From NCBI GenBank assembly GCA_030038475.1, contig JASHOU010000057.1, positions 1 to 64,000 of the forward strand: a stretch of DNA of 64,000 nucleotides, read 5' to 3'. How positions within the stretch are numbered: the first letter of the stretch is position 1; every line of letters begins with the position of its first letter. Made by a program: the position numbers and the translations under genes. This document shows positions 12,345 through 59,634 of the stretch, in pieces. Under the pieces are notes generated by a model, which was not told the DNA's origin, did no database searches, and saw only the letters and a list, made by a program, of their open reading frames with translations. This stretch comes from Terriglobales bacterium (GTDB lineage Bacteria; Acidobacteriota; Terriglobia; Terriglobales; Acidobacteriaceae).

Positions 12345-12492
12345 CCGATACCTCGCTTTAATCTTACATGCCGAAAAGGACGCGTCTGCCTATCGGTTAC
12401 CGTCGTCACTCTCGCCAGTCGTGGCAAGCGATTGGTATAGTGCATAGTGCCACACAGTTGCATTCAGAAGTTTTATTTCCGGGAGAATTCTT

Positions 12493-13818: not shown

Positions 13819-13824
13819 GAATTT

Positions 13825-13860
13825 CTGCCGCGCACAGCCCAGCGACTTCTGCTGCGGCAG
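13825..13860. terminator. possible hairpin between convergent genes
   Basis: CTGCCGC at 13825-13831 pairs with GCGGCAG at 13854-13860 across a 22-base loop. It lies in the 68-bp gap between the convergent dehydrogenase and polX genes. There is no T-tract, so intrinsic termination is uncertain. Confidence 0.3.
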
Positions 13861-13886
13861 AGGCCCAGCAACCGCGTCTCTACCGA

Positions 13887-34979: not shown

Positions 34980-36287
34980 ATGCCTGCCCTTCACGAGGAA
35001 TTCGACGAAATCAGTTCACCGCCGCCATTTCGTTTGGATGTTCAACTCCACGAACTGCTAACGAATTCAGCTCCAGTAAAAGCGGTTCTGCCCCCGACCA
35101 CAGCGGAAATCAGATTTCCCGAGCCGGTTTTTCCGCAGTATCCCAAGATCATGGCGCAGGACGACAATTATGATGAGAACCTGAGTCTGGCCAAAGCGGG
35201 AAAGCGGCGCTGGACGACTCCGCTGGTGCTCAGGGCCATGAATGGCTGGCTCTTTCCGTATTTCAAATCGCGCCTGCTACCCGGAGACTTTCACCCCATC
35301 ATTGCTTATCTGTTCACCGAGTGGAAGTGCAATCTCGACTGCCATTACTGCTGGGCTTTCGACAACAGCGTGAAAGGCATGACGGAGGAAGTCGCCAAGC
35401 GCTCGATCGATTGGCTGCATTCGACGACCTGCCGCGTGCTGGCCTTTATGGGCGGAGAACCGCTGCTGCGTCCGCAGCTGGTGCACAAGGCTTGCTACTA
35501 CGCGGCTAAAAAGGGTTTCTGGATTTACATGCCGACCAACGCGCGCCTGCTGCGTCCTGACGTGATCGACCGGCTGGCGGATTCCGGCGTGGCGATTTTT
35601 AATTTCGCCGTCGACGTCGTCGATGAAAAGCCGGGACTGGCTAAGGCTCTGACGCCCGTGCGCAAGTACTTCGATTATCTGGTTCACAAGCAGTACAAGT
35701 ACGGCTACACGGTGTTTTTCAACATCAACATTTGCCGCAACAATCTCGAGGACGTGAAGCAACTCACCGAGATTGCCCGCGAGCACGGCATCGCCACCGA
35801 TTACCACCTGAACGAATCGCCGATGATCGAGCAGAACCATTTCAAGCACTACGACGACAACGACACTTTTATCTATCCTCAGGACTGGCCGAGGGTGGAT
35901 GAATTGGTGGATTGGATCATCGAGAAGAACAAATCTGGCTACAAGATGGTGAACTCGGTGAAGCGGCTGCAGGATATGAAAGACTTCATGCGCGGCAAGG
36001 TGGAACCGTGGAACTGCCGTGCCGGACAGAACTCGATTATCATTCGCGTGGATGGATCGCTGGCGCCGTGTTTCCCGATGTATTCGGCGACCCACGACTG
36101 GGGAGTCATCGAAAACCACAAGTTCGAGGTTCCGCAGTTGAACGAAATGAAGAAGTCGTGCCAAACTCATTGCTTCTCGACCTTGAATCACAACCTCGGT
36201 TTCTGTTACAACGATGCCAGGGTCATCAAATGGGTTATGAAGCAGGCTGCCCATGGTTTCCAGGGAGTGAGCGGCAGCTTTGCGTAA
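34980..36287 (+). CDS. radical SAM protein with C-terminal Cys-rich region
   Basis: 435 residues. The radical SAM cluster motif is CNLDCHYC (CxxxCxxC) near residue 120, followed by LAFMGGEPLLRP, the GGE SAM-binding motif. The C-terminal part has CRAGQNSIIIRVDGSLAPC and later CQTHCFSTLNHNLGFC, a SPASM-like pattern for auxiliary clusters. The first 55 residues are a Pro-rich extension (ALHEEFDEISSPPPFRLDV); an alternative start is the ATG at 35151. The role is unknown. It lies just upstream of the dehydratase-like and activase genes on the same strand and may modify or mature one of them. AGAGAG precedes the ATG at 34980. Confidence 0.85.
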   Translation: MPALHEEFDEISSPPPFRLDVQLHELLTNSAPVKAVLPPTTAEIRFPEPVFPQYPKIMAQDDNYDENLSLAKAGKRRWTTPLVLRAMNGWLFPYFKSRLLPGDFHPIIAYLFTEWKCNLDCHYCWAFDNSVKGMTEEVAKRSIDWLHSTTCRVLAFMGGEPLLRPQLVHKACYYAAKKGFWIYMPTNARLLRPDVIDRLADSGVAIFNFAVDVVDEKPGLAKALTPVRKYFDYLVHKQYKYGYTVFFNINICRNNLEDVKQLTEIAREHGIATDYHLNESPMIEQNHFKHYDDNDTFIYPQDWPRVDELVDWIIEKNKSGYKMVNSVKRLQDMKDFMRGKVEPWNCRAGQNSIIIRVDGSLAPCFPMYSATHDWGVIENHKFEVPQLNEMKKSCQTHCFSTLNHNLGFCYNDARVIKWVMKQAAHGFQGVSGSFA

Positions 36288-36588
36288 CAGCCGGGCGTAG
36301 GAGTTTGCAGACGTGGGGTCCGGTTGCGAAAATTGGGGGAATTGTTTTTCTTTAGTTCGGGCCGCGAGAATTGTCTCTGAACTTTCTCGTCGGCGTCAGC
36401 ATCGAAGCTCCTAGTACGCTACAAGGAGATTCTGGTGGTTTACATCGCAGGCTCCTGGCACTCACGCCACATTCTGAGAGATCTGCGTCCTTTGTCCGTC
36501 TTTCTGGCGCGGTCAGCCCGGCTGGTTTCCGCGTCGTCACCCTTACAAATCACACCGCAATTCACACCGTATTATGCCGGAGGAAATA
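36288..36588. other. 301-bp gap before the dehydratase-like gene
   Basis: No gene or RNA recognised. Contains GGAGG at 36579-36583, the ribosome-binding site that fixes the ATG at 36589 as the start of the next gene. Confidence 0.5.
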
Positions 36589-38373
36589 ATGGCGACTAAT
36601 CTCGTTCAGATCGATAACGATCAGGAAATCAAGCAGCGCCTCGAAGCCGAACGCGCCAGGTTACGCAAGATCGCTGGCCTGGACCAGCCAACGCATTTCC
36701 ATCGTCCTGTGGAGCGGGCGTTTACCGCCGAGGAACGCAATCGCGTCACGATTCTTTTTGGCGGATTTACCTGGAAGCATGAGGATCTGATCCGAGCTGT
36801 CTTCCAGGGCTGCGGCTACCGCTGCGAGAAGTTACCGGTTCCGAATGTTGCCGCCTTTCAGACGGGCAAAGAGTTTGGCAACAACGGCCAATGCAATCCG
36901 ACGTATTTCACCGTCGGCAATCTGGTGCAGTATCTCCAGTTCCTCGAAAAGGAAGGACTGTCGCGCGACAAGATCCTGAACAATTACGTTTTCTTTACCG
37001 CGGGATCGTGCGGTCCTTGCCGTTTCGGCATGTATGAAGCCGAGTACCGCTTCGCGCTGAAGAACGCGGGCTTCGACGGCTTCCGCGTTTTGCTATTCAA
37101 AGATAGCGACGGGATCAGGGCTGCCTCCGGCGAGCCGGGTCTGAAATTCACCATCGACTTCGGGCTGGGAATGCTGAATGCGATGCATCTGGGCGACGTG
37201 ATCAACGACCTGATCTACCAGATTCGTCCGTTCGAGGTGAACAAAGGTGAGACCGATCGCGTGTTCCGCGAGATGGTGGATGGCCTGTGCGACGATCTCA
37301 GGAATCGCGACTCGTTCGAGATCGAGCAGAGCGCGCCCAATTGGCTCAAGCCAAAGGTCAAGAGCAACAAAGTTCTGAGAAACACTTTTAACGTGCTGGG
37401 CAAGATGCACGAGCACATGTGGGGCAAGGATTATCTCGGCGCTCTACATACGGCCCGCGACCGCATGAATGCGATCGAAGTCGACCGCACCAAGGTCAAG
37501 CCGGTGGTAAAGATCACGGGCGAGTTCTGGGCCCAGATCACCGAAGGCGATGGCAACTTCCACATGTTCGATTTTCTGGAGCGCGAGGGAGCGCAGGTGA
37601 TTGTGGAACCGATTGCGACCTGGGTCGCTTATCTGATGTATCAGGCGAAGGCGCACGCGATTGCGAAGTGGCCGGTGAATCGTCCGCATCGCAATCCGGA
37701 GTGGCATGAGTTCAAGAAGCATTTTGCGAATTACATCGGTCTGCACAAAAAGCTGTGGGGCATCGGCTTCGGCGAGAAAGCGTGGCAGTTCTTCTATCAC
37801 CGAACCATCAAGAACATGGGCGGAATTACGCATCATCTGGTGCCGCAAAAGGAACTGGCCGATTTCGCGCATCCTTTCTATAACCAGTTTGCGCGCGGCG
37901 GCGAAGGGCACCTCGAGGTGGGCAAGAATGTTTACTACACGGTTCACAAACTGTGCCACATGGTGCTGGCGCTGAAACCGTTTGGCTGCATGCCTTCATC
38001 GCAGTCGGATGGCGTGCAATCGGCGGTGATCAACAAGTTCAAGGACATGATCTTCCTGCCGATTGAAACCTCCGGCGAGGGCGAAGTCAACGCGCACAGC
38101 CGGGTGCAAATGGCGCTCGGCGAAGCGAAGGTCAAGGCGAAGACCGAATTCGAGCAGTGCCTGAAAACAACGGGCAAGAGCATGAACGAGATTCGCGAGT
38201 ACATCGCGGAACACCCCGAGCTGCGGCGGCCTTTCTATCATGTGCCGCACCGTGAAGGGATTGCCGGAACCGCGGCGCAATTTGTTTTGCATGTCAGCGA
38301 CCGGATGGATAAAAGCACGCGGCTGCGGAAGCGTTCGCGAGTTTCGGGAATAGCGCTGCCGGATGCGGCGTAG
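36589..38373 (+). CDS. 2-hydroxyacyl-CoA dehydratase-like (COG3581-type) protein
   Basis: 594 residues, related to the iron-sulfur component of 2-hydroxyacyl-CoA dehydratases and benzoyl-CoA reductases. Conserved segments include TILFGGFTWKHEDLI, NNGQCNPTYFTVGN, TAGSCGPCRFGMYEAEYRFA (candidate cluster cysteines), EGDGNFHMFDFLEREGA and LKPFGCMPSSQSDGVQSAV. In many bacteria this module is fused to the C-terminus of a giant BadF-type activase; here it is a separate gene upstream of the activase (38480). The GGAGGAAATA site places the start at 36589 and not at the ATG 15 bases earlier. The reaction is unknown; the family performs ATP-driven one-electron reductions of difficult substrates. Confidence 0.85.
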   Translation: MATNLVQIDNDQEIKQRLEAERARLRKIAGLDQPTHFHRPVERAFTAEERNRVTILFGGFTWKHEDLIRAVFQGCGYRCEKLPVPNVAAFQTGKEFGNNGQCNPTYFTVGNLVQYLQFLEKEGLSRDKILNNYVFFTAGSCGPCRFGMYEAEYRFALKNAGFDGFRVLLFKDSDGIRAASGEPGLKFTIDFGLGMLNAMHLGDVINDLIYQIRPFEVNKGETDRVFREMVDGLCDDLRNRDSFEIEQSAPNWLKPKVKSNKVLRNTFNVLGKMHEHMWGKDYLGALHTARDRMNAIEVDRTKVKPVVKITGEFWAQITEGDGNFHMFDFLEREGAQVIVEPIATWVAYLMYQAKAHAIAKWPVNRPHRNPEWHEFKKHFANYIGLHKKLWGIGFGEKAWQFFYHRTIKNMGGITHHLVPQKELADFAHPFYNQFARGGEGHLEVGKNVYYTVHKLCHMVLALKPFGCMPSSQSDGVQSAVINKFKDMIFLPIETSGEGEVNAHSRVQMALGEAKVKAKTEFEQCLKTTGKSMNEIREYIAEHPELRRPFYHVPHREGIAGTAAQFVLHVSDRMDKSTRLRKRSRVSGIALPDAA

Positions 38374-38388
38374 AAAAGCAGGTCTCAG

Positions 38389-38467
38389 GTCTTAGGTCTC
38401 AGGACAACACCGGTCTGAGATGCGAGCACATGGTGTCCCGAGACCTGACAACTGAGACCTGATACCT
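38389..38467. repeat. dispersed palindromic repeat, copy 2
   Basis: CAGGTCTCAGGTCTTAGGTC plus TCAGGACA on the left pairs with TGTCCCGAGACCTGACAACT plus GAGACCTG on the right; the stem is extended by ACACC/GGTGT in the centre. The arms match those at 16863-16924. It lies in the 106-bp gap between the dehydratase-like and activase genes. Confidence 0.75.
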
Positions 38468-38479
38468 GGTTCTGGAGAG

Positions 38480-41400
38480 ATGATGCACGATCATTTGGGA
38501 GAAAAACCGAAGCCAGCGCTGTTGCAAATAGCGCCCGCGCCTGCGCCCAAGCCGCACGATCATCACACCGAGTTTATGGTTGGACTCGATGTCGGCTCGA
38601 CGACGGTGAAAGCGACGGTCGTGGATGCGGCAAGCGACAAGGTGCTTTGGCAGGATTACCAGCGGCACGAGACCAAGCAGCCGGAGAAGACGCTGGAATT
38701 TCTACGGCGCATGGAAAAAGAAGTCGGCATCAATCGCCACAACACGCGCATGTTCATGACCGGCTCTGGCGGCGGCGCCATTGCCGACCAGATTGGCGCG
38801 AAGTTCGTGCAGGAAGTAACGGCTGTGTCGTTAGCTGTCGAAAAGATGCACCCGGAGGTTTATTCGGTTATCGAACTCGGCGGTCAGGATGCCAAGATCA
38901 TCGTCTTCAAGGATGACGAGGAAACCGGGCGCAAGAAGAAGATTCCATCGATGAACGATAAGTGCGCCGGCGGCACGGGCGCGGTCATCGACAAGATCAA
39001 TGCCAAGCTGAAAATTCCGACCGCGGAACTTTGCGAACAGAAGTATCACGGAATTAAGTTGCACAAAGTAGCAGGGAAGTGCGGCGTTTTCGCGGAGACG
39101 GATATCAACGGCCTGCAGAAAGTGGGCACGCCTGCCGACGAGCTGATGGCGTCGTTGTTCGAGGCCATCGTTCTGCAAAATTTGAGCGTATTGACGCGCG
39201 GCCACACCCTGCGGCCGCACGTTCTGCTGCTTGGCGGGCCCAACAGTTTTATTCGCGGTATGAGGGAAGCGTGGCAAGCGAATATTCCGCGCATGTGGCA
39301 GGAGCGTAAGGTTGCGATTCCCGATGGCGCGAAGCCAGAGGATCTCATCAAGGTCCCGCAGAACGCGCAGTATTTCGCGGCCATGGGCGCGATTGAGTTT
39401 GGCAAGAGCGAGGAAGATTGCGTCGGCTGCTACCGCGGATACGAGCAACTGCTTCACTATATCGAATACGGCCGCCAGGAAGAAAAGGCAAAGTCTGGCG
39501 CCAAAGGCTTGACCACGAGCGACACCGAGCTGGATGATTTCAAATTTGCCTATCGCCGCAAGAAATTCACGCCAGCGGCGTTCCACACCAACCAAACGGT
39601 TGGCGGTTTCATCGGCATCGATGGCGGCTCGACTTCGACCAAAGCCGTCTTGATCGACGAAAAGGGCGACATCCTTTGCAAGTCGTATCAGCTCTCGAAC
39701 GGAAACCCGATTCAAGACACGATTGAGATGTTCGAGAACCTGCGCGGCCAGGTGGAGGCGCAGAAGGCGAAGCTCGAAGTGCTGGGCGTTGCGACCACGG
39801 GCTATGCGAAAGACATTCTCAAAGACGTGTTGCACGCAGACGTGGCGCTGGTGGAAACGGTCGCGCACACCGAATCGGCGCTGAAATTTTACGACGATCC
39901 GCACGTCATCGTCGACGTGGGCGGGCAGGATATCAAGATCATCATTCTGCACAATGGGCGCGTCAAGGATTTCAAACTCAACACGCAATGCTCGGCGGGC
40001 AACGGATATTTTCTGCAATCGACCGCAGAGGGCTTTGGGCTGGGCGTGGAACAATACGCCGACCTGGCGTTCTCGGCGCAATCCATGCCGATTTTCGGTT
40101 ACGGCTGCGCGGTTTTCATGCAGTCGGATATTGTGAACTTCCAGCGGCAGGGATGGCGCGCGGAGGAAATTCTCGCCGGGCTGGCCGCGGTGCTGCCGAA
40201 GAATGTGTTTCTGTATGTGGCGAGCATTCCTAATCTCGCCGCGCTCGGCACGCGTTTTGTTCTGCAAGGCGGAACGCAGAACAACATGGCGGTGGTGAAG
40301 GCGGAAGTGGATTTCATCAACAATAGTTTTCGCGCGGCGGGCAAGAAGCCGGAAATTATCGTGCACGAATTTTGTGGCGAATCGGGAGCCATCGGCGCGG
40401 CGGTTGAATCTCTACGCCTGTGGCGCAATGGCCAGCAGACAACGTTTGTCGGACTCGACGCGGTGCGCAAGATCGAGTACCGCACCACGCGCAACGAAGC
40501 CACGCGCTGTTATTTCTGCAAGAACAATTGCCTGCGCACCTTTATCGACATTCGCACCGCACCGAAAGACGATCTGGCATTGATCCCGATTCAAAAGGTC
40601 ACAAAGGTTCCGCTGATGCACGGCGAGCAGCGCCTGATCATCGCGACTTGCGAAAAGGGCTTGGTCGAGGATGTCAACGACATGAAAGACATCAAGGCCG
40701 GCCTCGACCAGATCAAAGACAAGCATCCGAACTTTGTGGATATGGCCGCGCATGAGGTCTTCCGGCCGGTGAACGCGAAGAGCGCGGCCGATCCGATTCC
40801 GAGCGCGAAGTTCTGGAACAAAGCTGCCAAAGAGCGGATTCCGCTGATGGAAAACCGCAAGAAGCTGCGCGTGGGCATTCCGCGCGTGCTGAACATTTAC
40901 ACCTACGCTCCGCTTTTCAATGGGTATCTCGAGAGCCTCGGCGTGCAGCCGGAGAACATCATCTACTCCGATTACACCAGTTCCGATCTCTACCGCGCCG
41001 GCGCAAGCCGAGGCGCAATCGATCCCTGCTTCCCGGCGAAGATCGGCATTTCACACGTCTACAACTTGATTCAGGAGAAGCACCGAAAGAAGCCGCTCGA
41101 TGTGATCTTCTTCCCCATGTACGACGTGCTCACGTCGCCGCTGGTGAAGATCGTCGGCATGAACGCCTGCCCTACGGTGACGGCGACGCCGGAGACCGTG
41201 AAAGCGGCGTTCACCAAAGAAAACGACGTATTTGCCGAGCACAACGTCAAGTACGTCGACCCGGTTCTGAACTTTGCCGACCGAAAGCTGTTCGCCCACC
41301 AGATGCTGCAGGCGTGGCAACCGATTCTCGGCTTGTCACAGGAGGAAAACGACCGCGCGGTTGAAGTCGGCTACAAAGCATTGGCCGATTATGAAACCAG

Positions 41401-42064
41401 CATTCGCAAACGCGCCCGCCAGGTTCTCGATCAACTGGAGCGCGAAGATCGAATCGGCATTGTGATGCTCGGCCGACCGTATCACCATGATCCAGGGCTG
41501 AATCACGAAATCATGGAGGAGTTCCAGAAGCTCGGCTATCCGATCTTTTCGCAGAACACGTTGCCGCTCGATGAAGACATGCTGGAGCGTCTGTTCGGCG
41601 ATGAGGTCCGCGCGGGAGTCATTAGCCATCCGCTCGATATTGGCGATGCCTGGAAGAATTCGTATTCGTGCAGCACCAACCACAAGGTGTGGGCGGCGAA
41701 ATTCACGGCGCGGCATCCCAATCTCGTTGCGCTCGAAATCTCCAGCTTCAAGTGCGGTCACGACGCGCCGATTTATGGCGTGATCGAGGGCATCATCGAG
41801 CAATCGGGCACGCCGTATTTCTGCTTCAAGGATCTGGACGAGAACAAACCCACGGGATCGATCAAGATTCGCGTTGAGACGATCGATTATTTCCTGCGGC
41901 GCTACCGCGAAGAGGTGATCCGCAAGCGCAAAGCCGTTCAGGATATCGAGGCGCAGCTTGCGGCCCTCGAAGCCGAGCTCCGCAGCGAACGCCGCGACGC
42001 CGAACAGCCGGAGATGGTGCTGGAAAACTGCGAGGCGGAAGCCCAGGGAATGGCGGCGGATTAG
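38480..42064 (+). CDS. double BadF/BadG-type acyl-CoA dehydratase activase with DUF2229
   Basis: 1,194 residues. Two ASKHA ATPase modules: the first (about 30-330) with GLDVGSTTVKATVVD, GSGGGAIAD, ELGGQDAKII and NDKCAGGTGAVIDK; the second (about 380-640) with GIDGGSTSTKAVLID, TTGYAKDI, DVGGQDIKII, QCSAGNGYFLQ and GYGCAVFMQSD. Each has the Cys that would hold the [4Fe-4S] cluster of HgdC-type activators. RCYFCKNNCLRTF follows near 685. The C-terminal DUF2229/COG3580 part has RKKLRVGIPRVLNIYTYAPL, DPCFPAKIG and LGRPYHHDPGLNHEI. Activators of this family use ATP to inject low-potential electrons into a dehydratase/reductase. The target is probably the 594-residue protein upstream. The ATG at 38483 has slightly better spacing to GGAGAG. 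Confidence 0.88.
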   Translation: MMHDHLGEKPKPALLQIAPAPAPKPHDHHTEFMVGLDVGSTTVKATVVDAASDKVLWQDYQRHETKQPEKTLEFLRRMEKEVGINRHNTRMFMTGSGGGAIADQIGAKFVQEVTAVSLAVEKMHPEVYSVIELGGQDAKIIVFKDDEETGRKKKIPSMNDKCAGGTGAVIDKINAKLKIPTAELCEQKYHGIKLHKVAGKCGVFAETDINGLQKVGTPADELMASLFEAIVLQNLSVLTRGHTLRPHVLLLGGPNSFIRGMREAWQANIPRMWQERKVAIPDGAKPEDLIKVPQNAQYFAAMGAIEFGKSEEDCVGCYRGYEQLLHYIEYGRQEEKAKSGAKGLTTSDTELDDFKFAYRRKKFTPAAFHTNQTVGGFIGIDGGSTSTKAVLIDEKGDILCKSYQLSNGNPIQDTIEMFENLRGQVEAQKAKLEVLGVATTGYAKDILKDVLHADVALVETVAHTESALKFYDDPHVIVDVGGQDIKIIILHNGRVKDFKLNTQCSAGNGYFLQSTAEGFGLGVEQYADLAFSAQSMPIFGYGCAVFMQSDIVNFQRQGWRAEEILAGLAAVLPKNVFLYVASIPNLAALGTRFVLQGGTQNNMAVVKAEVDFINNSFRAAGKKPEIIVHEFCGESGAIGAAVESLRLWRNGQQTTFVGLDAVRKIEYRTTRNEATRCYFCKNNCLRTFIDIRTAPKDDLALIPIQKVTKVPLMHGEQRLIIATCEKGLVEDVNDMKDIKAGLDQIKDKHPNFVDMAAHEVFRPVNAKSAADPIPSAKFWNKAAKERIPLMENRKKLRVGIPRVLNIYTYAPLFNGYLESLGVQPENIIYSDYTSSDLYRAGASRGAIDPCFPAKIGISHVYNLIQEKHRKKPLDVIFFPMYDVLTSPLVKIVGMNACPTVTATPETVKAAFTKENDVFAEHNVKYVDPVLNFADRKLFAHQMLQAWQPILGLSQEENDRAVEVGYKALADYETSIRKRARQVLDQLEREDRIGIVMLGRPYHHDPGLNHEIMEEFQKLGYPIFSQNTLPLDEDMLERLFGDEVRAGVISHPLDIGDAWKNSYSCSTNHKVWAAKFTARHPNLVALEISSFKCGHDAPIYGVIEGIIEQSGTPYFCFKDLDENKPTGSIKIRVETIDYFLRRYREEVIRKRKAVQDIEAQLAALEAELRSERRDAEQPEMVLENCEAEAQGMAAD

Positions 42065-42114: not shown

Positions 42115-44463
42115 TCATGGGTTGCCGTGCGCGAATCTTGCGGCTGCTACCAATGCCTGTCCTAAACTCAAACCGCCGTCTCCAGCGGGAACTTCTTTTT
42201 GTGTAAATACTTCAAATCCAGCTTGCGAGAGCCGTGTTTCGAGGCGTTGCGACAAAAAGATATTGTGGAAGGTTCCACCGCTCAAACAAACGCGATTGAG
42301 TTGATTCTTCTTTCGCAGCAGCATTGCTAATTGCGCGAATGCCTCAACCAGCCCGTTGTGAAAGCGCGCGCTGATTGCTGCCACGTTAACATCTCGAAGA
42401 AGATCGTCGAGCAAGGCTTCAAACAGCGGACGCGTGCCGATGATCCAGCCGTCGTCGTGCCGCACAAGATCCAGCGGATAGAAGTTATTTTCCGATGATA
42501 AAGTCTCTGACGCCATCGACATTTCCAATTCAATGGCAGCCTGTGCCTCGTAATTGACCTGCTGACGGATTCCCGCCAACGCAGCCACAGCATCGAACAG
42601 ACGCCCGCAACTCGATGTAAGCGGAGAATTCACGCCTTTTTCCATCATGCGGAGAATTAGATCTACTTTCTTTTGGTTGAGCTGCCTCACAAATGGAATG
42701 TCGAACTTCAAAAACTCGCGTCCGAAATGATGCGCCAGATAGCTGACGGCCATGCGCCAGGGTTCACGGATGGCGGCCGCTCCGCCGGCCAAGGGCACAT
42801 ACTCGAAATGAGCGGCACGCTCGAAGTCCTCGTAGCCAGCGACGAGAACTTCTCCACCCCAGATTTTTCCGTCCGTCCCGTAGCCGGTTCCATCGAGGGC
42901 AAATCCAATCACGCGGCCTTCAAGATGATTCTCTGCCATACAACTTGCGATGTGTGCGTGGTGGTGTTGCACACCGGCCAACTTTATTCCGCTTCGCCGC
43001 GGCACCATTCCGTTCTGCTGCAGCGTCATCTGCTGGAGCGCCCATTTGGTGGAGAAGTAGTCGGGGTGGAGATCGTAAGCGATAATTTCCGGGTGGATTT
43101 CGAGAATCCGCTCCAGATGCTCAATCGCTTCATGAAAAAAGCCATAACTCTCAGCATTCTCCAAATCGCCGATATGCTGGCTGAGAAAGGCGTTCTTACC
43201 TTTGACGAGGCAGATGGTGTTCTTCAGTTCGCCGCCGACAGCCAGCACCGACGGTTGATCATTTTTCAGGAAGACCGGTACGGGAACAAAACCGCGCGAA
43301 CGCCGCAACTGCCGCGTGACTCCGCCTGTGACGCGCACCACCGAATCGTCGCAACGGAGCAGGATGTCACGGTTATGGACGAGGAAATAGTCGGCGAGGC
43401 CATCTAGTCGCTTAACCGCTTCCCGGTTATCGGTGGCGATCGGTTCCTCACTCAGGTTTCCGCTGGTCATGACCAGAGCCTTGAAGCCTCCGATTGCGAA
43501 AAGCAAGTGATGAAGCGGCGTGTACGGGAGAAAGATACCCAGGTAGCGATTGAAGGGCGCGACCTCGTCGGGAATTGCGTTGGGCGATTTTTTCGGCAAA
43601 AGAACAATTGGCCGCTGTATCGATTGCAGCGCAGTGATCGCAGCGTCATCCAGTTCGCAGATTTCGCGGGTGGCGGCGAGATCGGGAACCATGACGGCGA
43701 AGGGCTTTTCGACGCGGCGCTTGCGCTGGCGCAGCAGGGCCACGGCAGCGGGGTTGGTTGCATCGGCAGCAAGATGGAATCCGCCCAAACCTTTTACGGC
43801 GACAATGCGCCCGTCACGCAATGCGGCGACTGCTTCGGCGATGGGATCGGCGCAGGTAATTTTCTCTCCCGACTGGTCCCAGAGTTCCACGCGCGGCCCG
43901 CAGTCCCAGCAGGCGTTCGGTTGGGCGTGAAAGCGACGGTCGAGCGGATTTTTGTATTCCGCCTGGCAGGCTGGACACATGAGAAACGCCGCCATTGACG
44001 TGCTGGGCCGGTCATAGGGAATGTCGCGAATGATGGTGAAGCGCGGCCCGCAGTTCGTGCAATTGATAAACGGATAACGGTAGCGCCGGTCGTGCGGGTG
44101 GAACAGCTCCTGCAGGCAATCGGCACAGATGGCAACATCGGGAGAAATGAGAGTGCGAACCTCTTCACCTTCGTGGCTGTGAACGATGCGGAAATCCAGA
44201 TCGCCGTTGCAGGGGAGCTCAGTTACGGTGACGCCAGTGATCCGTGCCAGGGGCGGCGCTTCAGTGGGCAGGCGCTCAACAAAATCCTGAACGCTCTCTG
44301 CCGGGCCCTGAATTTCAATGGTAACTCCCGCGGGCGTGTTGCGGATGGTTCCACCAAGATGCCGGCCGATAGCGAGGCGGTAGACGTAGGGCCGGAACCC
44401 CACCCCCTGGACAATGCCGGAAACCTCGATCTGACGCCGTACGTCTGCCATTGCGTCGGCCAT
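42115..44463 (-). CDS. hypF: carbamoyltransferase HypF
   Basis: 782 residues. HypF makes thiocarboxamide on HypE from carbamoyl phosphate, the source of the CN ligands of [NiFe]-hydrogenase. An acylphosphatase domain (SGIVQGVGFRPYVYRLA) comes first, then two zinc fingers (CADC...CTNCG, CPAC...CWDCG), the YrdC-like domain (VAVKGLGGFHLAADA, KRRVEKPFAVM) and the Kae1-like carbamoyltransferase domain (GVQHHHAHIASCMAEN, GFALDGTGYGTDG, CLSGGTFHNIFL). All are intact. It starts 16 bp after hypB and is last of the hyp operon; convergent with the activase gene. Confidence 0.96.
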   Translation of the reverse strand: MADAMADVRRQIEVSGIVQGVGFRPYVYRLAIGRHLGGTIRNTPAGVTIEIQGPAESVQDFVERLPTEAPPLARITGVTVTELPCNGDLDFRIVHSHEGEEVRTLISPDVAICADCLQELFHPHDRRYRYPFINCTNCGPRFTIIRDIPYDRPSTSMAAFLMCPACQAEYKNPLDRRFHAQPNACWDCGPRVELWDQSGEKITCADPIAEAVAALRDGRIVAVKGLGGFHLAADATNPAAVALLRQRKRRVEKPFAVMVPDLAATREICELDDAAITALQSIQRPIVLLPKKSPNAIPDEVAPFNRYLGIFLPYTPLHHLLFAIGGFKALVMTSGNLSEEPIATDNREAVKRLDGLADYFLVHNRDILLRCDDSVVRVTGGVTRQLRRSRGFVPVPVFLKNDQPSVLAVGGELKNTICLVKGKNAFLSQHIGDLENAESYGFFHEAIEHLERILEIHPEIIAYDLHPDYFSTKWALQQMTLQQNGMVPRRSGIKLAGVQHHHAHIASCMAENHLEGRVIGFALDGTGYGTDGKIWGGEVLVAGYEDFERAAHFEYVPLAGGAAAIREPWRMAVSYLAHHFGREFLKFDIPFVRQLNQKKVDLILRMMEKGVNSPLTSSCGRLFDAVAALAGIRQQVNYEAQAAIELEMSMASETLSSENNFYPLDLVRHDDGWIIGTRPLFEALLDDLLRDVNVAAISARFHNGLVEAFAQLAMLLRKKNQLNRVCLSGGTFHNIFLSQRLETRLSQAGFEVFTQKEVPAGDGGLSLGQALVAAARFAHGNP

Positions 44464-44479
44464 TCATCAATCTGCAAAC

Positions 44480-45157
44480 CTAACTGGCAGTCTCCACCAG
44501 CGATTTATGCGCCTTGCGTTTCGCCTCCAGCCACGTGATCCATTCGTGCAATCCAGCGCCGGTGAGGCTGGATACCTTAACAATCTCCATCCCCGGATGC
44601 ACCTTGCGGGCGTTCTCCGCGGCTGCGTTGATGTCGAACGGAACGTAGGGAAGCAGATCGATTTTGTTAAGCACCAGCAAGTCGGACTTGAAGAATATGG
44701 AAGGATACTTCAGCGGCTTATCTTCGCCTTCGGTGACGCTTAACACCACAATCTTCGCCGCTTCGCCCAGATCGTAACTGGATGGGCAAACCAGGTTGCC
44801 TACATTTTCGACGAACAAAAGATCCAGGTCTTGGAGCCGCCAATCCGCCAGATGACGCTCGATCATGCGAGCATCGAGATGGCAGGTGCCACCGGTGGTG
44901 ATCTGCTTTACCGGGAAATGAAAGCGCTTCAGCCGGTTGGCATCGTTTTCCGTCTGAATGTCGCCGGTCAGCACGGCCACGCGATCCTGCCGGGGCAGCG
45001 CTTCGAGGGTGCGCTCCAGAAGGCTGGTTTTGCCGGAGCCCGGAGAACTAATGAGGTTGAGGCAGAGAACGCCGTGCTCAAGAAATCGCGCCCGCAGATC
45101 AGCTGCGATGCGATCGTTCTCACTGAGTACTTTTCGCTCCAACGGTACCCGGTCCAT
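44480..45157 (-). CDS. hypB: hydrogenase nickel incorporation GTPase HypB
   Basis: 225 residues. A GTPase that with HypA inserts nickel into hydrogenase. P-loop LISSPGSGKTSLLERTL, GDIQTENDANRL, the inter-subunit metal site GGTCHLDA, FVENVGNLVCPSSYDLGE, LSVTEGEDKPLKYP and NKIDLLPY are all present. The N-terminal CxxCGC high-affinity site and His-rich stretch of some HypB proteins are lacking, so it cannot store nickel. The start at 45157 overlaps the end of hypA by 38 bp; GGAGG nine bases upstream supports it. Confidence 0.95.
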   Translation of the reverse strand: MDRVPLERKVLSENDRIAADLRARFLEHGVLCLNLISSPGSGKTSLLERTLEALPRQDRVAVLTGDIQTENDANRLKRFHFPVKQITTGGTCHLDARMIERHLADWRLQDLDLLFVENVGNLVCPSSYDLGEAAKIVVLSVTEGEDKPLKYPSIFFKSDLLVLNKIDLLPYVPFDINAAAENARKVHPGMEIVKVSSLTGAGLHEWITWLEAKRKAHKSLVETAS

Positions 45158-45500
45158 ATTCTTCCACCTCCAGATATGCCAACTCCAACTGATCTCCACT
45201 GACGCAATTGATTGCAAAATTGGCGCATTGCGGACAGCGGAAATCGTAATCGCGCACAATGAACTCGTGGTCACAGGCATGACAATGATGCCGCCGCGGA
45301 CAAAACTCGATGGCCAACTCCAGCGCTGCCCAATCGGTATCCCGGATCATCGCTTCAAAACAAAAGCGCAAGGCGTCCGGGTCGAAGGCCGACATTTCGC
45401 CGATTCGAAGGCCGACCTTGCAGGGATAGGATTCCGGATAGCGCTGCATCTCGGTCTTCACCGCTTCCAGCACCGAACTTGCGATTCCCATCTCGTGCAT
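45120..45500 (-). CDS. hypA: hydrogenase nickel chaperone HypA
   Basis: 126 residues. Carries nickel to HypB and the hydrogenase large subunit. The nickel-binding N-terminus MHEMGIA (His2) and the zinc site CPRRHHCHACDHEF with CPQC are present. Spacing in the zinc domain is normal for HypA. It lies between hypE (23 bp gap) and hypB (38-bp overlap). Confidence 0.95.
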   Translation of the reverse strand: MHEMGIASSVLEAVKTEMQRYPESYPCKVGLRIGEMSAFDPDALRFCFEAMIRDTDWAALELAIEFCPRRHHCHACDHEFIVRDYDFRCPQCANFAINCVSGDQLELAYLEVEEYGPGTVGAKSTQ

Positions 45501-45523
45501 ACAATCGCGTCAATATCTTTCTT

Positions 45524-46591
45524 TCAGCATATCCGCGGCAGTTGATCGCCTGCCAGCATATCTACGACGCGCGTCGTGCCGAACGCCGTGCGCATTGTCA
45601 CCAATCCGGCGCGGTCATTATTGACCGTGCCAATGATCTGTGCCTCACGTCCCAGCGGATTTCTGCGCATCGTCTCAACGATGGCGTCAGCGGCTCCCGG
45701 CGCCACGATTGCGATCAGCTTGCCTTCGTTCGCCACGTAAAGTGGGTCCAAGCCGAGCAACTCACATGCGCCTCGAACCTGGTCTTGGATGGGAATGGAA
45801 GTTTCCTCCAGTTCGATACCAACCTGGGAGCGTTCGGCAATTTCATTCAGCGTGCTGGAGACGCCGCCGCGCGTGGGATCGCGCATGCAACGAATACCGG
45901 AACTGACGCCCATGATTTCAGCCACCAGCGTGTGCAGGGCGGCGCTGTCACTCTGAATCTGGGTTTCGAATTCCAGCCCATCGCGTTGCGCCAGAATGGC
46001 AATGCCGTGATCGCCAATCGCGCCGCTGAGGATTACTTTATCGCCGGCGCAGGCGCGGTCGGCGGAAAGATCGATTCCCTCCGGCACCAGTCCGATTCCG
46101 GTCGTGTTGATAAACAGCCCGTCACCTTTGCCTTTTTCGACAACCTTCGTGTCACCGGTAACCACAGGCACGCCCGCATCTGCCGCGGCTTGGCGAAGCG
46201 AATTTACGACGCGGCGTAGTTCGTCGATGGAGAAACCCTCTTCGATGATGAAGGCTGCGCTCAAGAAAAGTGGGGTTGCGCCGCCCATGGCCAAATCGTT
46301 GATGGTGCCGTGAACCGCGAGGGAGCCGATGTTTCCGCCGGGGAAAAATAACGGTTGGACGACGAAAGAATCGGTCGTGATGGCCAGACGCTGGCCGTTT
46401 ACATTTACGATCGCCTGGTCATCGAGGCGCTCCAGCACCGGATTCTGGAACGCAGGCAGGAAAACGTCGCGAATCAGTTCGGCGCTCAACTTGCCGCCGC
46501 TGCCGTGCCCCAGCAGAATTGTGTCTTTGGCGGGAAGCGGCGCCGGGCAACTGAGTTCGAAATTTATTTCGGCAGAAGCTTTGGCTGACAT
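45524..46591 (-). CDS. hypE: hydrogenase maturation protein HypE
   Basis: 355 residues. Dehydrates the thiocarboxamide transferred by HypF to thiocyanate, using ATP. The PurM-like fold shows LGHGSGGKLSAELI, ITTDSFVVQPLFFPGG, TINDLAMGGA and VTGDTKVVEKGKGDG, and RDPTRGGVSSTLNEIA. The essential C-terminal PRIC, whose Cys receives the carbamoyl group, is present. ATG at 46591 is used; an upstream in-frame ATG (46645) overlaps hypD. It starts 8 bp after hypD. Confidence 0.96.
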   Translation of the reverse strand: MSAKASAEINFELSCPAPLPAKDTILLGHGSGGKLSAELIRDVFLPAFQNPVLERLDDQAIVNVNGQRLAITTDSFVVQPLFFPGGNIGSLAVHGTINDLAMGGATPLFLSAAFIIEEGFSIDELRRVVNSLRQAAADAGVPVVTGDTKVVEKGKGDGLFINTTGIGLVPEGIDLSADRACAGDKVILSGAIGDHGIAILAQRDGLEFETQIQSDSAALHTLVAEIMGVSSGIRCMRDPTRGGVSSTLNEIAERSQVGIELEETSIPIQDQVRGACELLGLDPLYVANEGKLIAIVAPGAADAIVETMRRNPLGREAQIIGTVNNDRAGLVTMRTAFGTTRVVDMLAGDQLPRIC

Positions 46592-46599
46592 GCTTACTC

Positions 46600-47703
46600 C
46601 TACTCGGCAACTGCATGACGCCGATAATGATAATAGGCGGCGCATGCCCCTTCACTCGAAACCATCGGCGCTCCCAAGGGGTTTTCCGACGTACACTTCA
46701 TGCCAAACGCCGGACAATCCGTGGGTTTTTTCAATCCCTGCAAAACCAGCGCACTGATGCACTCGGCCGGTTCATCTACGCTAATTACGCCGAGGTCGAA
46801 TACACGGTCTGCATCATACGCCGCATACTCTTCGCGCAGGCGCAAGCCACTCTGCGGAATCGAACCGATGCCGCGCCACTTCTGGTCGGCGACTTCAAAC
46901 ACCTCGGCCATAATCTGCTGCGCGGGTACGTTTCCCTGGTAGCTTACCGAGCGCACATACTGATTCTGCAGACGCGCCTCTCCGGCTTCGAGTTGCCGAA
47001 CCAGCATGAGAACCGCTTCCAAGATATCTGCCGGCTCGAATCCGCCAACCACGATCGGGACGTGAAAATCGCGCACCAGCGATTCATACTCTTTGCAGCC
47101 CATGACTGTGCACACATGTCCCGGGGCAATGAAACCCTGCACGCGATTCGTGCTCGTAACCATCAGCGCGCGGATCGCCGGCGGCACCAGCACCTGCGAA
47201 ACCAGCAAAGAAAAATTAGTGAGACCTTCGCGTTTGGCTTGCCAGGCGGCCATGGCATTCGCGGGAGCTGTGGTTTCGAAGCCAATTGCCAGAAACACAA
47301 CTTTGCGATCGGGATTCGAGCGGGCAATCTTTACCGCCTCAGTCGGCGAGTAAGCGATACGAACATCCGCACCCTGAGCCTTAGCGCGAAACAGATCCGA
47401 ATGCGATCCCGGCACGCGCAGCATGTCGCCGTAGGAAACCAGAATCACGTCTGGTTGCGGCGCCAGCGCAATGGCTTTATCCACAGTTTCAAGCGGGGTA
47501 ACGCACACCGGACATCCAGGGCCATGCACGAGTTCGATTCCGCGCGGCAGCAATTCATCGAGGCCGTAGCGCATGACGGTGTGTGTCTGGCCTCCGCAGA
47601 TCTCCATCAGCACCCACGGCCGCGTGGTTGCTTGCCGAATCTCAGCTGCCAATCCCTTGGCAATGCGATGATCGCGGTATTCGTCAAGGTATTTCATGAC
47701 CAA
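46600..47703 (-). CDS. hypD: hydrogenase maturation protein HypD
   Basis: 367 residues. Iron-sulfur scaffold on which the Fe(CN)2CO unit is built with HypC. Conserved motifs: [52 protein letters not shown], and the C-terminal [20 protein letters not shown] then EGACAAYY, which together hold the [4Fe-4S] cluster and redox cysteines. The start may be the ATG at 47697. It lies between hypC (20 bp gap) and hypE. Confidence 0.96.
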
Positions 47704-53745: not shown

Positions 53746-54594
53746 TCAAACTGCTCCACTGAGGGTCAGCAGTTCAGCCAGGTTGCGCAACACGCGGCGC
53801 GGGCTTCGGCTCAAGGGTTGCTTCGCCCAGTCCCGCATACTACTCATACCGGTTGTAACCCCGAAACCGACCGCACCTCCGCGGCGAGCCATAATCATTT
53901 CCACCAGCGGATCGTCGCCAACCACGCCAACCCTGCGCATGGGCACTCCCAGCTTACGAGCCACCAGCCGCAAAGCATGGAGAGAAGGTTTGCCGGTAAG
54001 CACCATGGGTGCGCGGGTGATCTTGCGAACGGCAGCGGTAATGGCGTGCGAATGGCCTAATGTCTTGCCGCTCGCAGTGGCGAAGAAAGGCACATCCGAC
54101 GCGACATACAGCTCGGCGCCATTCCAAATTGCCTTCACCGCCGTCTCGATATCCTTCATGCCGCACTCCGGATGCCAACCGATGTACACAGCCTGAGCCT
54201 GCTCGGCTCCTTCTTGCCCAGTGGAAAGAGTTTCAATTCCGCTTTCTCTCAGTGCATGTCCCACGCCGGAAGTGCCTAAGACGAGGGCGCGCTTAATGCC
54301 ACGGCGCGGCATCAGGTCGGCCGCTACGGTCGACGGAGTAAGCAGAGCATCATCAGTAATAGGCAGACCGAGTGCACGCAGCTTGGGTGCCTGCTCGGCG
54401 GCCGGATAATGGGTGCCATTCGTAAGCACGACAAATGGAATTCCACGCGCTACGAGCGTAGTCAATACTTCTACCGCGCCGGGCAGCAACTGATAACCGG
54501 TCAGAGAATGATTGCTGAGCACGAGCGTGCCGTCGAGGTCGAACATGAAACCTTCGACTGGACCCAGCGCTTCCCCATTGCGAGATGCTTTCAT
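53746..54594 (-). CDS. HAD-IIA family hydrolase (NagD-like)
   Basis: 282 residues. A haloacid-dehalogenase phosphatase with the nucleophile motif MFDLDGTLVLSNH, the IIA cap (VLTNGTHYPAAE, GIKRALVLGTSGVG) and TGKPSLHALRLVARKLGVPM followed by VGVVGDDPLVE. Members dephosphorylate sugar phosphates, nucleotides or phenyl-phosphate-like model substrates. It overlaps the carboxyltransferase-like gene by four bases (ATGA) and closes the five-gene operon, so its natural substrate is likely a phosphorylated intermediate of that pathway. Confidence 0.85.
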   Translation of the reverse strand: MKASRNGEALGPVEGFMFDLDGTLVLSNHSLTGYQLLPGAVEVLTTLVARGIPFVVLTNGTHYPAAEQAPKLRALGLPITDDALLTPSTVAADLMPRRGIKRALVLGTSGVGHALRESGIETLSTGQEGAEQAQAVYIGWHPECGMKDIETAVKAIWNGAELYVASDVPFFATASGKTLGHSHAITAAVRKITRAPMVLTGKPSLHALRLVARKLGVPMRRVGVVGDDPLVEMIMARRGGAVGFGVTTGMSSMRDWAKQPLSRSPRRVLRNLAELLTLSGAV

Positions 54595-56081
54595 GCTTCC
54601 ACATCTCCTGCGGCGCTCGTACTTAACTCAAGACTGAAACCCGGCTTCGTCACGGAGAGATATGCGATGTCGCGGCGGGCGGCGAGTTGGCGGATCAGGT
54701 TCTTCACCGGAATCATCTCGGGATCGTAGATGCGCGGCGCGACGCCAAGTGGTTTCATCGCGTCAACCTGGTTCGCCGGCATGGTGGCTCGAAGCAAAAA
54801 CTCTTCGTCGCTGAGTTCTGGTCCGATACGCTGGCGCAGTTCGCTGAGCGGTGGCATGCCGGGTTCCTTGCGAAGCTCCGCGGCTCGGGGCAGAGAATCG
54901 ATGCGGTCCATCACCTCCGACGCGATGGGAATATTGGGCCGGCCGAATTTTCCGAACGCATAGCGGATCACTTCGTCAGGAATCACGGCATATCGTTCCT
55001 TGCCGGTCACGTTCATCACGGCCTGGGTCAGCACGATCTGCGAGAACGGCGTCATCACGATTGGCCAACCGAGTTCTTCGCGCACCCGGCCGATCTCATC
55101 GATCACGGCCCGCTCCAAGTGTGACAACCTGCTTTCGGCAAGGTGACGGCGCATGGTGCCGATCATCCCACCGGGTAGTTGATGTCGAAGATAGCCGGCG
55201 TCGAAAGCCTGCGGCTGCCCCGCCGGAAAACCTTCCGCTTCCGCAAGGCGAGTGAAGTAGCGGCTAACCTCGGCCAGAGCCTCGTCGTCGATGTCAACCT
55301 GATGGCCAAGAGCGCGCAGATTCGATACCACTCGTTCCGACGGCGGATTGGAAATCCCGTCGGAAGCCGCACCCGAGGCGCATTGTACTGCGCTCACTCC
55401 CCACTGCGGCGCGTCCATGTAGACCAACTCTCCGAGACCGATGGTGCAATGAGAATGCAGCTCCAGCGGTTTGTCGCCGATGACCTCGACGATTGCGGGG
55501 ATCAGCGTGCGGGCACGAAGTGGAGTGAGAAGACCTCCCGGATCTTTGATGTAGAGAGCGTCCACATCGCGGCTGGCGACGAGCTTGTGAGCGCAATGGA
55601 CGTAGTGCGCATCATCGTGAATAGGGCTGATCGTGAAGACGAGCGCGACAACAACATATTCGCCGCCTGCGGCTTTTGCCATGCGCGCGCAGGCGACATT
55701 GGAATCGGTGTCGTTCATTGGATCGGCAAGGGCAAAGCGCCGAATGCCATTCTTCACAAGAGTTCTGAACGCCAACGCCATGAACTCAGGGCTTGCCGTC
55801 TCCCACGAGATAAAGCGAAAGCCGGTGGAGAGAAACTGCAACGGCGTCTTCGGCATCGCCTCGGCCATCAGACGGATTCGTTCCCAGGGATTTTCCTGCT
55901 TGTAGCGCACGGCAACGCCCATGTGCGTGGAAGTGGTGAAGTCGATGGCCTTGAAGCCCACGCGCTCCATGGCGGGCGCGATGCTCAGAGTCTTGGCTGT
56001 GTCGACACCGAGTGCAGCCCAGAGGCTTTGATTCCCGTCGCGTAATGAGGTCTCAACCAGTTGAATATTCGCCATGCTCAC
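54591..56081 (-). CDS. biotin-dependent carboxyltransferase-like (HMGL/PycB-OadA family) protein
   Basis: 496 residues. HMGL-like TIM barrel related to the carboxyltransferase of pyruvate carboxylase and oxaloacetate decarboxylase. ETSLRDGNQSLWA, DFTTSTHMGVAVRY, YKQENPWERIR, FALADPMNDT, the Lys in YIKDPGGLLTP, LELHSHCTIGLG and the conserved-carboxylase-type region ending PRAAEL are present. Several family residues differ (GGATF is TTSTHM; HTHDTSG is HSHCTIG), so the substrate is probably not pyruvate. No biotin-carrier domain is attached; the preceding gene supplies one. Start GTG 56081 overlaps that stop; ATG 56075 is equally possible. Confidence 0.8.
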   Translation of the reverse strand: MSMANIQLVETSLRDGNQSLWAALGVDTAKTLSIAPAMERVGFKAIDFTTSTHMGVAVRYKQENPWERIRLMAEAMPKTPLQFLSTGFRFISWETASPEFMALAFRTLVKNGIRRFALADPMNDTDSNVACARMAKAAGGEYVVVALVFTISPIHDDAHYVHCAHKLVASRDVDALYIKDPGGLLTPLRARTLIPAIVEVIGDKPLELHSHCTIGLGELVYMDAPQWGVSAVQCASGAASDGISNPPSERVVSNLRALGHQVDIDDEALAEVSRYFTRLAEAEGFPAGQPQAFDAGYLRHQLPGGMIGTMRRHLAESRLSHLERAVIDEIGRVREELGWPIVMTPFSQIVLTQAVMNVTGKERYAVIPDEVIRYAFGKFGRPNIPIASEVMDRIDSLPRAAELRKEPGMPPLSELRQRIGPELSDEEFLLRATMPANQVDAMKPLGVAPRIYDPEMIPVKNLIRQLAARRDIAYLSVTKPGFSLELSTSAAGDVEA

Positions 56082-56557
56082 GACTCGGGACGCAGGCGCA
56101 GCAGAATCTCGCCATATTCGACGGCCGTGCCGTTCTCAACCAATATCTCGATCACTTCACCCTTCACGCCCGCACGGACCGTGTTCATCAGCTTCATTAC
56201 CTCGATGATGCCGACTACCGTATCCTCTTCCACATGCGAGCCCACATCCACGAAGGCCGGTTCGCCGGGTTTGGGCGCGCGGTAATAGATTCCAAGCAAC
56301 GGAGAAGGAATTTCGTACAGACCAGGTTCTGATGGCGGCTTGATTTTTTTCGCCAGTCGCGGCGGCGCTGCCGGCATGACGGAGGATGACGCGGCATGCG
56401 TGGGCGATTGGATTCCGTCTGGGTCGTGTCGCACGGATTTCGCCGAGCTGCGCTGCAGGTGCAGCTTCATGCCGTCGACCTCAATCGATAAGTTGTCGAA
56501 GCTGGAGTCTTCGAGCAACCGCATGATCTCGGCCACATCTTTGGCCGTCAGACTCAT
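56078..56557 (-). CDS. biotin carboxyl carrier protein
   Basis: 159 residues, AccB-like layout: an N-terminal helical part (DVAEIMRLLEDSSFDNLSIE), a linker rich in Pro, Ala and Ser, and the biotinyl domain (GLYEIPSPLLGIYYRAPKPG) with the biotin-accepting Lys122 in EVMKLMN. The SPLLGIYYRAPKPG thumb is of the acetyl-CoA carboxylase type. It overlaps both neighbours by four bases, so it is translated with them and serves this operon, not fatty-acid synthesis. A GGAG site precedes the ATG. Confidence 0.92.
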   Translation of the reverse strand: MSLTAKDVAEIMRLLEDSSFDNLSIEVDGMKLHLQRSSAKSVRHDPDGIQSPTHAASSSVMPAAPPRLAKKIKPPSEPGLYEIPSPLLGIYYRAPKPGEPAFVDVGSHVEEDTVVGIIEVMKLMNTVRAGVKGEVIEILVENGTAVEYGEILLRLRPES

Positions 56558-57618
56558 CTCCGGCCTCCGAAAATGTTCATTACATGGCTAACTGGACTCT
56601 CCGCGGGTCGGGCGACGGGGTTGACGGCTTTGGCGGACCACACCGTCTCGGGCCGGCTCTGCAGTAAAAGAATTTTTCCGTTCCGGTCGATGGCCCATTC
56701 AATATCCTGCGGGCGCCCGTAATGGCGCTCGACTTTACGGCCGATGTCCCGAAGCGCCGCTAATTCATCGTCGCTAACGCTCGGCACACGGCGCATCTCG
56801 TCGGGTGTTTCAACCTCATCAACGCCACCACTTGGCGCGGGCAGATGCTGGACGTGCTTGTCGGAGATGTCGCGTACGGAAATCTCGCCGGTGATCTTGG
56901 CAATGACGAATCGGTCGGGCGTCACCTCGCCGCTGACTACCGCCGATCCCAGTCCCCAAGTCGCCTCGATTGTGATCACCGACCGGTCGCCGGTTAGCGG
57001 GCTGCGCGTGAACATCACTCCCGCGGTGCGGGCATCGACCATCTGTTGCACAACCACGGCCATTGCCACTCCATCTTCGCGCATCCTGTGTTTGCGACGA
57101 TAGGCGATGGAGGCGACGGAGTAGAGACTTGCCCAGCACGAGCGCACATATTTCAACGTTGCTTCCGCGCCCATAACCCACAAATAGGTGTCCTGCAGGC
57201 CGGCGAAGCTGGCATCCTCCGCATCCTCGGTGGTTGCCGAGGAGCGCACGGCCAGCGGCCAATCCAGTCGATCGCCGCAAAGCTCGGCATGCGCCCCGAG
57301 AATTTCCGATTGCAGATCCTGCGGCAGCGCCACATTTTCGAAGCGCGCGCGCACACGCTCAGAAAGAGCGGTAATGGCGTCGAGTTCATCTTCGTCCGTT
57401 TGATTCTGGCACAGCGACTCGACACGCGAACGGATCGTCTTTTCTATTTCGAGCATGGCGAGGAAGCGTTCGAAGGCGCCAGTGCGCACCACGAACCCCG
57501 GCGGCACGGCGATTCCAGCGCGCGTGAGTTCGCCCAAAGACCCGCCTTTGCCGCCGACCGCGAAACGATCCGCCAGCGTGATATCGGCGAGCGAGCTGAG
57601 GTTTTGCGATGAGCGCAT
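56554..57618 (-). CDS. PEP-synthase-like ATP-grasp subunit (phenylphosphate synthase PpsB-like)
   Basis: 354 residues. This is only the N-terminal, ATP-binding half of a PEP synthase: VGGKGGSLGELTRAGI, VPPGFVV, AVRSSATTEDAEDASFAGLQ, QQMVDARTAGVMFTRSP, EATWGLGSAVVSGEVTPDRF and DIEWAIDRNGKILLLQSRPE. The phosphohistidine half is encoded by the preceding gene. Such a split (about 40 kDa plus about 70 kDa) is known from phenylphosphate synthase of Thauera aromatica (PpsB and PpsA). The start is ATG at 57618, or TTG at 57636. It overlaps the biotin-carrier gene by four bases. Confidence 0.85.
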   Translation of the reverse strand: MRSSQNLSSLADITLADRFAVGGKGGSLGELTRAGIAVPPGFVVRTGAFERFLAMLEIEKTIRSRVESLCQNQTDEDELDAITALSERVRARFENVALPQDLQSEILGAHAELCGDRLDWPLAVRSSATTEDAEDASFAGLQDTYLWVMGAEATLKYVRSCWASLYSVASIAYRRKHRMREDGVAMAVVVQQMVDARTAGVMFTRSPLTGDRSVITIEATWGLGSAVVSGEVTPDRFVIAKITGEISVRDISDKHVQHLPAPSGGVDEVETPDEMRRVPSVSDDELAALRDIGRKVERHYGRPQDIEWAIDRNGKILLLQSRPETVWSAKAVNPVARPAESPVSHVMNIFGGRR

Positions 57619-57682
57619 GGCAATGTGGCGAAGCAAAATGTGTTGAAAGACCTGAAACTTCGAAAAGTAGAGCCAGCCTGTT

Positions 57683-59506: not shown

Positions 59507-59634
59507 AACATTGTGCTCATTGCGTCCCCCCGCTACTTCCCCCCCGCGCCGACTTAATCTACACCAGTTTGGCCCGGGTGCAGCCGCTATCTTTAAGCGT
59601 GATCACTTTGCGGCATCATTAGCGTCACGTGGCG

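Follow-up and report, generated by a model that had tools for sequence, protein, structure and literature searches.

A probable PlsA/Ger-type split reductase of Acidobacteriota and its recurrent radical SAM gene neighbour

The window analysed here is a stretch of 64,000 nucleotides from a soil acidobacterium of the Terriglobales. It was found to carry a radical SAM gene followed by two genes, here called RED and ACT, whose products probably form an ATP-driven Fe-S reductase of the PlsA/Ger type, with the radical SAM protein in an accessory role, most likely as a tailoring enzyme for the lipids of the same pathway. I hold this reading with moderate confidence. A bolder version, put forward tentatively as something short of probable, is that radical SAM-RED-ACT forms a repeatedly reshuffled three-enzyme cassette for ether lipids in Acidobacteriota, where the radical SAM protein would carry out an undescribed radical step on membrane lipids, for example the coupling of the chains of diethers or the saturation of a vinyl ether to an alkyl ether.

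Why would such a gene set matter? Branched GDGTs are widely used as soil palaeothermometers, and the formation of their ether bonds in Acidobacteria is unsettled. Only some Acidobacteria carry elb genes, and PlsA and Ger are inseparable by sequence (PMC11868695, PMC13274423). An earlier proposal assigns ether formation in Candidatus Solibacter usitatus to homologues of PlsA-PlsR (PMC10087280). This species and Edaphobacter aggregans are the reported producers of branched GDGTs. An acidobacterial PlsA/Ger-type clade that some cultured Edaphobacter strains carry and most of their sisters lack provides a directly testable gene set, and its recurrent radical SAM neighbour would be a candidate for one missing step of ether-lipid synthesis.

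Modules and cysteines of the three proteins

An ORF check of the window revealed that the radical SAM gene, RED, and ACT are intact and lie in this order on the plus strand, from position 34980 to 42064, as had been noticed in a sequence-only reading that placed a radical SAM gene directly before the genes of a 594-residue and a 1,194-residue protein. The radical SAM gene (34980-36287, plus strand) encodes 435 amino acids with an N-terminal extension (residues 1-103), a PF04055 domain, a CX3CX2C motif, and four invariant C-terminal cysteines. From its first ATG, the RED ORF spans 36574-38373 on the plus strand and encodes 599 amino acids. Since a Shine-Dalgarno sequence, GGAGGA (36579-36584, plus strand), lies directly 5′ of the second ATG at 36589, translation likely starts there and yields a protein of 594 amino acids (36589-38373), which is exactly the length given in the earlier reading. 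A promoter-like sequence, TTCACA and AATAAT separated by 18 nucleotides (36561-36590), overlaps the RED start, with the total of the scan at about the background level; an own promoter for RED-ACT at this site is only possible. Terminators were likewise at background level in the scan, with no clear signal.

The ACT gene (38480-42064, plus strand) encodes 1,194 amino acids. Two PF01869 (BcrAD_BadFG) matches and one PF09989 (DUF2229) match were found, all above the cut-off. The first ASKHA activase module covers approximately residues 33-370 (38576-39589; the limits are approximate) and has the cluster cysteines 162 and 201, and the second covers residues 378-642 (39611-40405) and has the cluster cysteines 504 and 543. 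They are followed by a linker with cysteines 677, 680, 684, and 724 (40508-40651), which is probably an extra [4Fe-4S] site, and by the DUF2229 reductase module at residues 797-1026 (40868-41557), with cysteines 850 and 897 inside it and cysteine 1092 just after it. Thus, the two ASKHA ATPases with their cluster cysteines and the DUF2229 domain were recognised correctly from the sequence. The two cluster pairs are invariant in 19/19 relatives within the phylum and in 26/26 more distant PlsA-like proteins. All 11 of these cysteines (162, 201, 504, 543, 677, 680, 684, 724, 850, 897, and 1092) are kept in 19/19 proteins of the acidobacterial family, so that the ligands are indeed conserved in the family alignment. 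Their positions are also common to distant PlsA-type proteins, except for C680, which is replaced in four of them.

The activases of the HgdC/HadI type are homodimers with two cluster cysteines per subunit. Since the two modules of ACT are in one chain, the natural inference is that one bridging cluster per ACT would be held between them. From the remaining cysteines, one further cluster may be expected in the linker and one in each of the two reductase modules.

RED has no match to any Pfam or NCBIfam family, PF06050 (HGD-D) gave no match in either RED or ACT at E-values up to 10, and a PDB profile search with RED returned no matches. Its likeness to known proteins came from a fold search. 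The AlphaFold model of RED (mean pLDDT 85) matches 2-hydroxyisocaproyl-CoA dehydratase (HadC), BzdNO, MbdON, and double-cubane cluster proteins (DCCP) with Foldseek E-values from 1e-4. The Z-scores, 8 to 9.6 for about 270 residues, stand out from those of the remaining matches. The low TM-scores reflect the larger size of RED, of which only parts were matched. Judging from the model, RED most likely adopts a benzoyl-CoA reductase/dehydratase (BCR/HAD) family fold, enlarged in its middle part, and it may be regarded as the equivalent of PlsR/Red2. The GSCGPCRFG motif contains C146 and C149 (all RED cysteines are numbered in the 599-aa frame). C107, C149, and C472 are present in 25/25 family proteins of the phylum and C146 in 24/25. 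The first three are shared across the PlsA/PlsR/Ger superfamily, whereas C146 occurs in only 2/25 proteins outside the clade. The earlier description of RED as a separate catalytic-like module with the GSCGPCRFG cysteines agrees with these results.

Kinship of RED-ACT with PlsA-PlsR and Ger

Two BcrAD_BadFG modules followed by DUF2229 are a feature of the PlsA/PlsR/Ger superfamily, and ACT has it. It was revealed that the ACT profile and then the RED profile run collinearly along fused acidobacterial proteins of 1,300 to 1,530 amino acids, along two-gene forms (about 1,020 and 440 amino acids) of other Acidobacteriota, along the fused proteins of Listeria, Haliovirga, Collinsella, and Acetoanaerobium, and along a gene pair of Fusobacterium. 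This one-chain form, at about 1,400-1,530 residues, bears out the earlier remark that both modules form one polypeptide of about 1,400 residues in many bacteria. The 11 ACT and three RED cysteines were also found in the homologues from Listeria (L228), Fusobacterium (L230), Haliovirga, Collinsella, and Acetoanaerobium, with C680 varying in a few of the distant proteins. From this collinearity and the superfamily-wide cysteines, RED-ACT appears to belong to the PlsA/Ger (plasmalogen synthase/glycerol ester reductase) family, with ACT as the probable PlsA equivalent, and is filed there.

The PlsA-PlsR and Ger enzymes convert ester-linked glycerolipids into vinyl or alkyl ethers (PMC12838417, PMC8788747, PMC13274423). 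Plasmalogen synthase PlsA-PlsR consists of two activation and two reduction domains (PMC12838417), and the same architecture was assigned to Ger (PMC13274423, PMC8788747). Listeria has plsA/plsR orthologues, and plasmalogens were reported there (PMC9702350). RED-ACT shares two ASKHA modules, DUF2229, a second reductase of the BCR/HAD type, and cysteines with PlsA-PlsR of Clostridium perfringens, which is fused in Listeria, Enterococcus, and Lactococcus, and the module order is the same if ACT is read before RED. In contrast to the known PlsA-PlsR pairs, the RED gene precedes the ACT gene, RED is about 594 residues long with a larger middle part while PlsR has about 404-440, and there are an extra Cys146, a separate deep clade, and a radical SAM partner. 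The separate acidobacterial clade, the inverted order of the split genes, and the recurrent radical SAM partner set RED-ACT apart within the superfamily. Ger, the PlsA-like enzyme of Thermotoga and Desulfatibacillum, has two Pfam activation domains, as does ACT, and these two domains of Ger have been correlated with saturated alkyl ethers in the literature. The use of two PF01869 stretches as a criterion of Ger versus PlsA was rejected, since the PlsA homologues of Listeria and Fusobacterium also have two.

If RED-ACT works like its relatives, one [4Fe-4S] cluster would sit between the two ASKHA modules of ACT, each giving two cysteines. With ATP, an electron would be pushed from this cluster through the four-cysteine linker cluster and on to those in the DUF2229 module (three cysteines) and in RED (three or four cysteines). 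It would be used there to reduce an ester carbonyl in a membrane glycerolipid, leading to a vinyl or alkyl ether. The radical SAM protein would tailor the same lipid rather than mature the reductase. The sequence-only reading had proposed an ATP-driven, low-potential, split reductase of unknown substrate; its first part stands, while the second gives way to the homology and collinearity with PlsA-PlsR/Ger, which act on glycerolipid esters.

Has RED-ACT moved to another substrate, such as a CoA thioester or a small unsaturated or double-cubane-type substrate, so that the lipid link is only ancestral? In the tree, the RED-ACT clade of the window is one acidobacterial group with 100/100 support on a long stem branch (1.71), apart from the characterised PlsA, and another substrate is possible from this position. 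The clade-specific Cys146 and the enlarged middle part of RED point the same way, as does the RED model, to which nothing comes closer than DCCP and HadC. The absence of the radical SAM gene from 20/59 decidable loci, and from some genomes altogether, counts against the main reading as a whole, as do the 6/25 radical SAM genomes without a DUF2229 protein. In one study, several Edaphobacter strains, which may or may not carry these genes, yielded no glycerol ethers (PMC11354219). On the other hand, no CoA-pathway gene is conserved at the locus, the superfamily cysteines and module order are kept, and the clade groups with that of the Listeria/Fusobacterium-type PlsA references, other acidobacterial forms lying elsewhere in the tree; the tree was midpoint-rooted, with C. 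perfringens and Thermotoga sequences and the HAD/BCR enzymes left out, and its sister relations are provisional. I consider a change of substrate rather unlikely, while giving it real weight. RED-ACT resembles 2-hydroxyacyl-CoA dehydratase and benzoyl-CoA reductase with their activases, as well as DCCP:DCCP-R, in the architecture of ATPase-driven electron transfer, in the ASKHA homology, and in the predicted fold of RED. It differs from these systems in having no PF06050 match, no conserved CoA genes, and both activase modules in one chain. The earlier statement that the substrate is not an acyl-CoA by context is probably right.

Genomic linkage of the radical SAM gene

Is the radical SAM gene a regular companion of RED-ACT? 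I scanned 84,980 genomes and analysed the best 80 related loci. RED is followed by ACT on the same strand in 75/75 loci with ACT on the contig. A radical SAM gene lies within about 1.1 kb of RED-ACT in 39 of the best 80 loci (on the same strand in 36), namely upstream in 20, between RED and ACT in 10, and downstream in 9, three of which have it on the opposite strand. It is absent from 20 of the best 80 loci, all with full flanks, and 21 are undecidable; 39/59 is an upper estimate, as positives were counted even with short flanks, and a stricter count gives 32/60. The presence of the gene changes at least 12 times on the RED tree, as forced by well-supported branches. Thus, the radical SAM gene has been repeatedly gained and lost, yet keeps landing beside RED-ACT.

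In Edaphobacter, RED was found in 11, the radical SAM gene in 10, and ACT in 12 of 62 genomes. All 10 genomes with the radical SAM gene are among the 11 with RED (p of about 1e-10, which ignores relatedness and is indicative only), and the one RED genome without it is partial, its contig starting within RED. In nine genomes, the three genes are neighbours, and the matched stretches are separated by 79-88 and 39-257 bases. In one genome (G341, contig 7, about 10931-15348; L250 and L251), radical SAM, RED, and ACT have all decayed together, while the C-terminal part of ACT is the sole remnant of the cassette in another (G155). The co-occurrence analysis proposed earlier therefore bears out the description of the radical SAM protein as an unusual partner of the pair, recurring with RED-ACT both across loci and within Edaphobacter. 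Adjacency by chance would be compatible with the absence of the gene from many loci, that of the window's nearest relative included, but it is very improbable: the gene lies beside the pair in 39 loci and three orders, its presence has changed repeatedly and independently, and in one genus it occurs exclusively with RED and has decayed jointly with the pair.

Among 297 acidobacterial genomes, a DUF2229 protein is present in 19/25 genomes with the radical SAM gene versus 51/272 others (relatedness ignored), and 6/25 have the radical SAM gene without a DUF2229 protein. The nearest relative of the window (L102 in G297) has intact RED-ACT and no radical SAM match in its assembly, which is possibly incomplete. 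Taken together, the radical SAM gene is a true partner of RED-ACT, though one that the pair can do without.

For the radical SAM genes away from RED-ACT, no one constant neighbour was found. Two such homologues (L090 and L095), in genomes without DUF2229 proteins, have genes for a HemB-like protein, an acyl-CoA synthetase-like protein, and a membrane-like protein of 182-184 amino acids nearby, as read by eye. In a further genome (G148), the radical SAM gene is broken by in-frame stops or a frame break (L091, 275-1414), and intact RED-ACT lies elsewhere.

Candidate roles of the radical SAM protein, and flanking genes

The CX3CX2C cysteines of the PF04055 domain (117, 121, and 124) are invariant in 22/22 relatives, and so are C346, C364, C394, and C398 in the C-terminal part, which probably serve an auxiliary cluster. 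The cysteines described earlier as SPASM-like are thus conserved; the SPASM Pfam score is 15.5 bits, below the cut-off of 21.5.

Does this protein mature or repair RED-ACT, by cofactor insertion or protein modification? The tight linkage on the same strand, the three positions including the one between RED and ACT, and the joint gain, loss, and decay in Edaphobacter would suit such a role. Against it, the whole assemblies of close relatives with RED-ACT lack the radical SAM gene, known PlsA is active in E. coli with no such gene supplied (PMC12838417), and radical SAM genes are present in genomes without DUF2229 proteins. I regard this role as unlikely; the absence of the gene from the nearest relative argues that the protein is not an obligatory maturase, and the earlier suggestion that it may mature a cofactor is weakened. 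Since the gene is dispensable and also found without DUF2229 proteins, an accessory step is favoured, most economically on the same lipid. Its recurrence beside the pair in other species points to a third component of bacterial ether-lipid synthesis that has not been described before. No paper describing its association with RED-ACT was found in a literature search that did not cover the 2022 paper defining Mss and Ger.

Would the accessory step be the tail-to-tail coupling of lipid chains, as by Tes/Mss, which would make the locus an mss-ger cassette for branched GDGTs? The protein shares a radical SAM core and possibly a lipid context with GDGT-MAS/Tes and Mss. Its match to GDGT-MAS is good (profile 5e-10, structural Z 14.6), the comparison being made with GDGT-MAS and without Mss sequences. 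In the window's genome, no protein stood out as a full-length homologue of Tes; a search there with the MAS core fragment yielded only heme/NirJ-like proteins, MoaA, PqqE, and other short radical SAM proteins, as judged by eye. However, the best structural matches are BlsE (Z 19.6), SkfB, and viperins, and the profile match to the CteB-type structure 5wgg is also better (1.6e-12). The protein has 435 residues versus about 500 for GDGT-MAS/Tes/Mss, with one C-terminal set of four auxiliary cysteines. Moreover, all six tested strains of Edaphobacter contained iso-diabolic acid (PMC11354219), yet the gene occurs in just 10/62 genomes of Edaphobacter; a role as the general iso-diabolic acid synthase is unlikely, the tested strains not being matched individually to the genomes. 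I find the Tes/Mss-type role quite doubtful, while a role in coupling diethers is conceivable.

Two further gene runs were noticed on the minus strand. The run at 42115-47703, convergent with ACT, begins with hypF (Pfam), followed by hypB-, hypA-, hypE-, and hypD-like ORFs read by eye. A hydrogenase link via hypFBAED was rejected, since hypF, hypD, and fumC were found near 0/80 related loci, and this neighbourhood is regarded as incidental. The run at 53746-61560 encodes an acyl-CoA synthetase, a HAD-IIA hydrolase, a protein like pyruvate carboxylase B/oxaloacetate decarboxylase, and, as separate proteins, a PEP-synthase N-terminal domain (PPDK_N) and a PEP-utiliser mobile domain. It has the look of an operon for a split phosphotransferase-ligase.
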